41,623 bases of DNA, taken from the NCBI GenBank assembly GCA_020348885.1, contig CP070755.1, positions 949,261-990,883 on the forward strand, in the 5' to 3' direction. Below, in pieces: positions 25,262 to 27,731 of the stretch. Under the pieces are notes generated by a model. The model was not told the DNA's origin and ran no database searches. It saw only the letters and a program-made list of their open reading frames with translations. This DNA comes from Candidatus Coatesiibacteriota bacterium. Its GTDB lineage: Bacteria > RBG-13-66-14 > B26-G2 > WVWN01 > G020348885. The stretch's first letter is position 1. Each line of letters begins with the position of its first letter. A program made the position numbers and the translations under genes.

Positions 25262-25924
25262 ATGGCACAGGATAGTTTCGTCGAAGACAGTGGACTACAG
25301 GAGCGAGTCGTCGCGATAAACAGGGTCGCGAAAGTCGTTAAAGGCGGACGCCGGTTCGGTTTCAACGCGCTAGTCGTCGTGGGCGATGGCGCCGGAAGCG
25401 TAGGATACGGTCTTGGGAAAGCCAACGAAGTAGCGCTAGCCGTAAATAAGGGCGTCGAACTCGCGAAGAAAAACTTAATGGAAATCCCGATAATAGACGG
25501 GACTATTCCGCATGAGGTCGTTACCAAGTACGGGGGGGCCAGGGTAATGATAAAACCGGCGTCGCCCGGTACGGGGGTTATCGCCGGGAGCGCTATGCGC
25601 GCCGTCCTAGAGCTAGCCGGCGTACATAATATATTGACCAAGTCCTTCAGGTCGAACAACCCGCACAACGTTATCAAGGCTACGTTGAAAGCCCTGGAAG
25701 AGTTGAAACATCCCGACGAAGCCGCGATACGGAAAGGCTTGGGAGTTAAACGGGCTGAGAAAGCCGAGAAAAAGGAAGACGTGAAGGTAAGCGTCCGGCG
25801 CCGCCGGAAAAAGCGGCGGGCCGGCGAAGAACCCGAAACGGAAACGACCGCCGCCGAATCCGCTGCGCCGGACGATGTGTCGGCGGAAGAAATAGAAGAA
25901 GAAGCGGAAGAAGAAAACGAATAG
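25262..25924 (+). CDS. rpsE: 30S ribosomal protein S5 with charged C-terminal tail
   Basis: S5 helps maintain decoding accuracy. The core has [39 protein letters not shown] and [20 protein letters not shown]. The core ends near residue 170, the usual full length, but this protein has 220 residues. The extra part is a basic block ([15 protein letters not shown]) followed by a strongly acidic Glu-rich tail ([12 protein letters not shown]). The start is ATG 25262. The next gene is normally rpmD (L30), but only 28 bases separate this stop from the rplO start, so rpmD is absent here. Confidence 0.96.
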
Positions 25925-25952
25925 CGTTTTCGCGTGGCGTTGGAGGTTTCAG

Positions 25953-26399
25953 GTGGAATTAGGGGAGTGATCGCCCAGACCGGGGTCAAAGAAGAGGCGT
26001 AAGCGCCTCGGGCGCGGCCCCGGTTCCGGGAAGGGTAAAACCTGCGGCCGCGGACATAAAGGCCAGAACGCCCGTTCCGGCGGCGGTGTACGCCGCGGTT
26101 TCGAGGGTGGACAGATGCCGCTCCACAGGCGCCTCCCGGCCAAGGGCTTTACGAGCGTCTTTAACCGCGAGAAGAAGGCAACCGCGGTCGTTAACGTCGG
26201 CCGTTTGGACGGCCTCGAAGGCACAGTCGACCTGGCCGTTTTGAAGGAAAAGGGTATCGTAAAGGGAAAAGGTATTACAAGGCTGAAGATACTCGGCGAC
26301 GGCGAGCTTAACGTCGCGTTGACGGTTCGGGCGAACCAGTTCTCGAAATCGGCGACCGCGAAGGTGAAAGCCGCCGGCGGCAAGGCCGAGGTGGTATAA
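25953..26399 (+). CDS. rplO: 50S ribosomal protein L15, with an in-frame TGA at codon 6
   Basis: GGAGG at 25942-25946 is followed by GTG at 25953 and codes for MELGE, then TGA at 25968-25970. In the same frame come [40 protein letters not shown] and [15 protein letters not shown], a complete L15 of normal length (148 codons) ending at TAA 26397-26399. E. coli L15 begins MRLNTLSPAEGSKK, so TGA stands exactly where Leu6 belongs; one base (TTA or TTG to TGA) explains it. No ATG, GTG or TTG occurs between the TGA and codon 55 (ATG 26115), which would delete the conserved rRNA-binding N-terminus. TGA is a real stop elsewhere here (rplD, map, the F420-ligase-like gene). Sequence error, true nonsense mutation or read-through cannot be told apart from sequence. 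Confidence 0.85.
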
Positions 26400-27731
26400 T
26401 TGTTCGAGATACTGAAAAGCTTCTTCGTCAACCTACGCAACATCTTCAAGATACCGGAGCTCAGGCGCCGGGTTCTAATAACCCTGGCTTTGATACTGGT
26501 TTACAGAATCGGCCGCCACGTACCGACGCCCGGCGTCGACGGCGCCGCCCTGACCGCGTTCTTCGAAGCTCAGAAAGGCACCCTGTTCGGCCTGTTCGAC
26601 CTGTTCTCCGGCGGCAACATGAAACGGGCAACTATCTTCGCTCTGGGGATAATGCCCTACATCTCCAGCTCGATTATCTTCCAGTTACTCGTAACGGTTA
26701 TCCCGTACCTGGAGAAACTATCGAAAGAGGGTGATACCGGCCGGAAAAAGATTACCCAGTACACTCGATACGGTACGGTTGTACTATCGGTTATTCAGTC
26801 TATGAGTATCAGCCTTTGGTTGGAAACGCTTGCACCCGGTGGGATACCTGTCGTTCCGGACCCGGGTTGGGGCTTCCGCTTGTTAACTATACTGACGATG
26901 ACCGCCGGAACCGCGTTCATAATGTGGTTGGGGGAGAAGATAACCGAATTTGGCATCGGGAACGGGATATCGCTTATTATATTCGCCGGAATCATCGCCG
27001 CGATGCCCGGAGGAACTATAAAGGTATTAAATAACCTGATACACGGCGAGATGCATATAGGGGTATTCATAGTATTGATATTGATAATGATCGCCGTGGT
27101 AATGGCAATTGTCTTCATGCAGGCGGGCCAGCGACGAATCAAGGTGCAATACGCTAAACGAATCAAGGGCCGAAAGGTTTATGGCGGCCAAGCGACCCAT
27201 ATACCGCTCCGGGTGAACACGGCGGGCGTTATCCCGGTCATCTTCGCCAGCTCGATAATAATGTTCCCGCAAACGATACTGACGTTCGTCGGCGGCAAGG
27301 GCGGTATCGTCGAACAGATAGCGGCGTACCTACTGCCCGGCGAAATCGGATATATAGTACTAGACGTGATACTAATCGTATTCTTCACGTACTTTTATAC
27401 GGCCGTCGTCCTTAACCCGGTCGACATGGCCGAGAATATGAAGAAGTACGGCGGGTACATTCCGGGGATACGCCCGGGTAAAAAGACCGCCGAGTTCATA
27501 GACCGTATATTGACCCGGATTACGCTCGCGGGCGCTTTATTCCTCGCGGCGGTGGACGTATTGCCGTCGATACTCATCAGGTTCATGAACATACCGTTCT
27601 ACTTCGGCGGTACCGGGTTGTTAATAGTAGTGGGCGTCGCGCTGGACACGATGCGGCAGGTAGAGTCGCACTTGCTTATGCGGCACTACGACGGGTTCGT
27701 TACGAAAGGCAGGATTCGGGGCCGGGTCTAG
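26400..27731 (+). CDS. secY: Preprotein translocase subunit SecY
   Basis: The pore of the Sec translocon, 443 residues with ten hydrophobic spans. ITLALILVYRIGRHVPTPGV is the conserved first span, with the plug region FDLFSGGNMKRATIFALGIM behind it. PYISSSIIFQLL, the cytosolic loop with RRIKVQYAKRIKGRK, and IPLRVNTAGVIPVIFASSI are all present. TTG 26400 follows directly on the rplO stop (TAATTG), with GGTGGTATAA ahead, so it depends on ribosomes arriving from rplO. That matters given the TGA early in rplO. It is the partner of SecE at 569. Confidence 0.98.
   Translation: MFEILKSFFVNLRNIFKIPELRRRVLITLALILVYRIGRHVPTPGVDGAALTAFFEAQKGTLFGLFDLFSGGNMKRATIFALGIMPYISSSIIFQLLVTVIPYLEKLSKEGDTGRKKITQYTRYGTVVLSVIQSMSISLWLETLAPGGIPVVPDPGWGFRLLTILTMTAGTAFIMWLGEKITEFGIGNGISLIIFAGIIAAMPGGTIKVLNNLIHGEMHIGVFIVLILIMIAVVMAIVFMQAGQRRIKVQYAKRIKGRKVYGGQATHIPLRVNTAGVIPVIFASSIIMFPQTILTFVGGKGGIVEQIAAYLLPGEIGYIVLDVILIVFFTYFYTAVVLNPVDMAENMKKYGGYIPGIRPGKKTAEFIDRILTRITLAGALFLAAVDVLPSILIRFMNIPFYFGGTGLLIVVGVALDTMRQVESHLLMRHYDGFVTKGRIRGRV

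Follow-up and report, generated by a model that had tools for sequence, protein, structure and literature searches.

A TGA within rplO of a draft Candidatus Coatesiibacteriota genome most probably reflects a consensus error

The only gene for ribosomal protein L15 (rplO) in a Candidatus Coatesiibacteriota genome (the source genome, G000) carries a TGA in frame at codon 6, which is real as recorded sequence and unsupported as biology. Comparison with L15 genes of related genomes, together with a survey of other in-frame stops in the same assembly, suggests that this TGA is very probably a single-base substitution error of the consensus, introduced during sequencing or assembly, or else a minority variant that the assembler took up into the consensus.

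Results

The window, the whole 41.6-kb stretch of DNA that we analysed, contains the S10, spc and alpha ribosomal operons. In it, rplO lies between rpsE (25262-25924) and secY, an order that fits the spc operon. The original prediction had described a GTG start with a strong ribosome binding site upstream, an in-frame TGA in an otherwise full L15 frame, no usual start (ATG, GTG or TTG) in frame from the TGA until codon 55, and a secY start directly on the rplO stop codon; all of these were present in the recorded sequence (Table 1). The frame after the TGA remains open for 142 codons, and its translation was identified as L15 by the TIGR01071 profile (E 8.8e-46, 154-156 bits over 142 aa, against a curated cut-off of 77.95 bits). 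A profile search of the genome revealed no second L15 copy, leaving the rplO of the window as the sole L15. Translation starting at codon 55 is too late for a working L15. In the given sequence, L15 is not encoded by a single uninterrupted frame, and we judge this interruption to be due to a sequence error. As separate observations on this region, rpmD (L30) is missing between rpsE and rplO (25925-25952), and S5, the rpsE product, is extended at its C-terminus by a long charged stretch.

Table 1 Features of the rplO locus (window coordinates) and other G000 genes with in-frame stop or UGA codons
Feature	Position	Strand	Basis or remark
rplO ribosome binding site, GGAGG	25942..25946	+	six bases 5' of GTG; read from sequence
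rplO codons 1-5, GTG GAA TTA GGG GAG (VELGE)	25953..25967	+	same-order relatives have MKLGE
In-frame TGA, rplO codon 6	25968..25970	+	Leu in relatives; sequence and comparison with relatives
Rest of rplO (L15)	25971..26399	+	open and conserved, stop TAA 26397-26399; TIGR01071, Pfam Ribosomal_L27A
Stable hairpin 3' of TGA	25978..26025	+	folding; not TGA-specific
ATG, codon 55	26115..26117	+	earliest usual start past TGA; read from sequence
secY	26400..27731	+	intact, TTG start abutting rplO TAA; read from sequence, profile match
MvhD-like protein, UGA in GG-U-HPGDCHY	G000:C1 ~789,781	-	locus L131; probable selenoprotein
Hydrogenase large subunit, UGA in RICGV-U-P	G000:C1 ~788,352	-	locus L131; probable selenoprotein
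Cysteinyl-tRNA synthetase (CysRS), sole full-length copy	L261, G000:C1:1331235-1332605	-	internal TAG; 505 bits
CCG-domain Fe-S oxidoreductase	L128:11882-13274 = G000:C1 401,882-403,274		in-frame TAG; Trp in relative
RimO	L128:16413-17744 = G000:C1 406,413-407,744		in-frame TAA
Sigma-54-dependent regulator			in-frame TAA; Tyr in relative
DUF4139-like protein			in-frame TAA; name is a reading of the sequence
DUF5916/CBM9-like protein			in-frame TAG; name is a reading of the sequence
M16-type peptidase			TAA; further candidate, ab initio scan
GAF/PAS protein			TAA; further candidate, ab initio scan

We compared 124 L15 loci, two of which represent the window's own gene. Leu, the residue predicted for codon 6, occupies this position in 96 of the 124 loci, with mostly Ile, Val or Met in the remainder; Cys was found at none of the 124, and a stop at none of the 122 other loci. 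The closest relatives compared belong to the same order (G001-G004) and share the L15 N-terminus MKLGEL. The original prediction had proposed checking codon 6 in sister genomes: all four have intact genes with Leu and none has TGA, the codon being CTC in G001, G002 and G004 and TTG in G003. It had also placed TGA one base away from TTA or TTG, which holds for TTA, whereas TTG is two bases off. In contrast to the same-order relatives, G007-G011, from other classes of the phylum, have a shorter and differently built L15 N-terminus (MQLKPSNN..., MDLVSGN...; loci L118-L122), and the first L15 residues are accordingly not universally fixed.

L15 of G000 is 61-63% identical to that of the same-order genomes. 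As a measure of constraint, we divided the mean divergence between G000 and G002-G004 by the divergence among G002-G004. The ratio for L15 was 1.54; across the operon region, 16 genes gave ratios between 1.34 and 3.41, and only one was lower than that of L15. This low ratio argues that constraint has not been lost on the G000 branch, where rplO appears to evolve under normal constraint with no accelerated divergence. L15 was also kept in all 51 relatives whose genomes are at least 90% complete.

We then considered the assembly. The 2.6-Mb "single contig" of G000 is a draft: separate pieces were linked with N runs that are each exactly 100 long, and 1.24 Mb contained 95 of these runs. The window corresponds to one such piece, flanked by the N runs 949161-949260 and 990884-990983. 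The "one contig" of G004 is likewise a draft, with 149 runs of 100 N in 0.8 Mb. The contig counts of both genomes overstate assembly quality.

A 1.24-Mb sample of G000 was surveyed for other in-frame stops. The affected genes each contain one such stop in a frame that is otherwise full length, and TAA, TAG and TGA are all represented (Table 1). Among them is the sole full-length CysRS, which is complete and conserved apart from its TAG; a sole CysRS is indispensable to a bacterium. The genes for the Fe-S oxidoreductase and RimO are neighbours, and both start at 100-N gaps. No frame-shifted splits were detected in the sampled G000 genes having homologues. Comparable nonsense codons numbered four in 69,643 aligned residues of G000, in addition to two known from a separate comparison, while in the reverse comparison the 95,751 residues aligned from G002-G004 yielded one, in an NHL-type protein with TGA in place of Trp. 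Among ABC and radical-SAM domains, a stop was present in 1 of 58 in G000 and in none among the matches listed in G001-G004.

An ab initio codon-score scan of read-through frames served solely as a source of candidates, each of which was then judged singly. Its rates, taken from a second version because the first was over-strict, were 28/Mb in G000 versus 43-52/Mb in the relatives; as they mix in gene junctions and antisense frames, they do not discriminate, and we rejected them as evidence. Most "stops" of an initial screen were antisense artefacts and were dropped.

A consensus error, the first of four options named in the original prediction, is strongly favoured because G000 contains single-stop lesions free of frameshifts in unrelated conserved genes, including a gene that cannot be lost, the sole CysRS. 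The rplO stop is moreover unique among all L15 compared, in a gene that is otherwise intact. Against this explanation, the other stops imply mixed base changes with no single error signature. From about one stop per ten thousand codons, and our own estimate that about 1 in 20 substitutions gives a stop, the wrong-base rate of G000 would be roughly one per one to two kilobases, a rough figure, and some stops may be real. Also against a consensus error, some of the other in-frame stops could be real pseudogenes, and none of the other 20-odd RNA polymerase and ribosomal genes of the window's contig is broken, so that the local error density is low. From the pattern and the controls, we infer that the base at rplO codon 6 is wrong. 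In a draft, metagenome-type genome such as this, one erroneous base, or a minority variant, would yield TGA in the rplO consensus, the implied change in a one-step case being TTA to TGA (T to G). In the living organism, codon 6 would most probably encode Leu, and full-length L15 would be translated normally from the GTG.

A recent, real nonsense mutation, with the sampled population lacking L15 and tolerating its loss, is an unlikely alternative. E. coli rplO null strains are known, the TGA stands in the assembled sequence, and the variable N-terminus in G007-G011 is compatible with some freedom in the first residues. However, the divergence of rplO is not accelerated, L15 is retained throughout the near-complete genomes, and termination at codon 6 should exert polar effects on secY and on the adk-map-rpsM-rpsK-rpsD-rpoA-rplQ genes that follow. 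Moreover, tolerance of this kind could not account for the stop that the assembly shows in CysRS.

Read-through of the UGA by near-cognate decoding or suppression, giving L15 at a lower dose, would explain why rplO is still constrained, and a hairpin of -35 kcal/mol lies 3' of the UGA. We nevertheless regard it as very unlikely. As a read-through or SECIS signal the hairpin was rejected: its z-score was -2.6 against dinucleotide shuffles but only about -1.9 (about 1.9 s.d.) against synonymous shuffles, and G004, which has no stop, has a stronger one. Programmed read-through would entail a conserved stop with constraint on both sides, whereas the UGA is conserved in no relative. Genes for both RF1 and RF2 are present; the apparent shortening of RF2 was discarded as a clue, since that gene is truncated by a contig end. 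TGA terminates 95 of 634 long ORFs in the G000 sample, and no suppressor tRNA with a UCA, UUA or CUA anticodon was found among 21 tRNAs in 1.24 Mb of G000. Read-through is further weakened because the other in-frame stops of G000 are mostly TAA and TAG, which no UGA mechanism would cover.

The UGA was nonetheless a legitimate suspect for selenocysteine, because G000 encodes SelA (410 bits) and SelB (344 bits), both over their cut-offs, and contains at least two convincing selenocysteine codons. These are the UGAs of the MvhD-like protein and the hydrogenase large subunit, which are common to G000 and G002 (contig 7) and each have a downstream hairpin whose apical loop contains AGG. On the basis of these genes, G000 appears to decode UGA as selenocysteine. 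For tRNA-Sec, Rfam matches were below threshold, with tRNA-Leu/Ser as the best. Published selenoprotein searches demand Sec/Cys pairs (PMC1088965, PMC13188914), and the bSECIS rule calls for a stable stem and, at a distance of 16-37 nt from the UGA, a G within the first two positions of the loop. At rplO, no Cys homologue was found for codon 6. The stable L15 fold presents a UAAG loop at 29 nt, whereas in the real SECIS loops of the lineage AGG lies 20-22 nt from the UGA. Only by opening a G-C pair can the L15 hairpin be made to fit, which also succeeds for 4-6% of the ordinary codons in the window, and the hairpin fails the published energy limit. Under the published model (PMC13188914), no SECIS was matched in rplO, with a marginal match only under relaxed limits. 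That the rplO UGA is a selenocysteine codon is therefore extremely improbable.

Restart of translation past the TGA at a non-standard codon merits practically no credence: ATT, ATC, ATA and CTG, like the usual starts, are absent in frame from the first codons past the TGA, and we found no evidence favouring it.

Discussion

The original prediction was thus partly supported: the sequence features and the first-named explanation stood, whereas dose control by read-through, re-initiation and tolerated loss of L15 found no support. It is highly improbable, in our view, that the UGA is both real and decoded, through read-through or an unusual insertion, so as to limit L15 and, via coupling, SecY in a selenocysteine-using bacterium. 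If true, a ribosomal protein gene would be recoded here, for which there are few precedents. A more practical consequence is that, without read checks, the G000 draft is unfit as evidence for recoding, pseudogenes or exceptions to essentiality, and broken markers of this sort may depress the completeness reported for it (90%).

Three known situations offer comparisons. The E. coli rplO null mutants would be alike in the absence of L15 if the stop were real; they differ in that rplO of G000 shows no sign of relaxed constraint and in the polar effect that its stop would have on secY and the genes farther along. Bacterial selenoprotein genes with bSECIS elements (PMC13188914; PMC1088965) share with rplO an in-frame UGA, a hairpin behind it and a genome encoding SelA and SelB, whereas the rplO site has no Cys homologue, presents the wrong apical loop in its stable fold and is unconserved in relatives. 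Although the rplO case is drawn from pattern and controls rather than from reads, it resembles the nonsense consensus errors of draft and metagenome-assembled genomes, in which single substitutions producing all three stops are scattered over otherwise intact, single-copy conserved genes.
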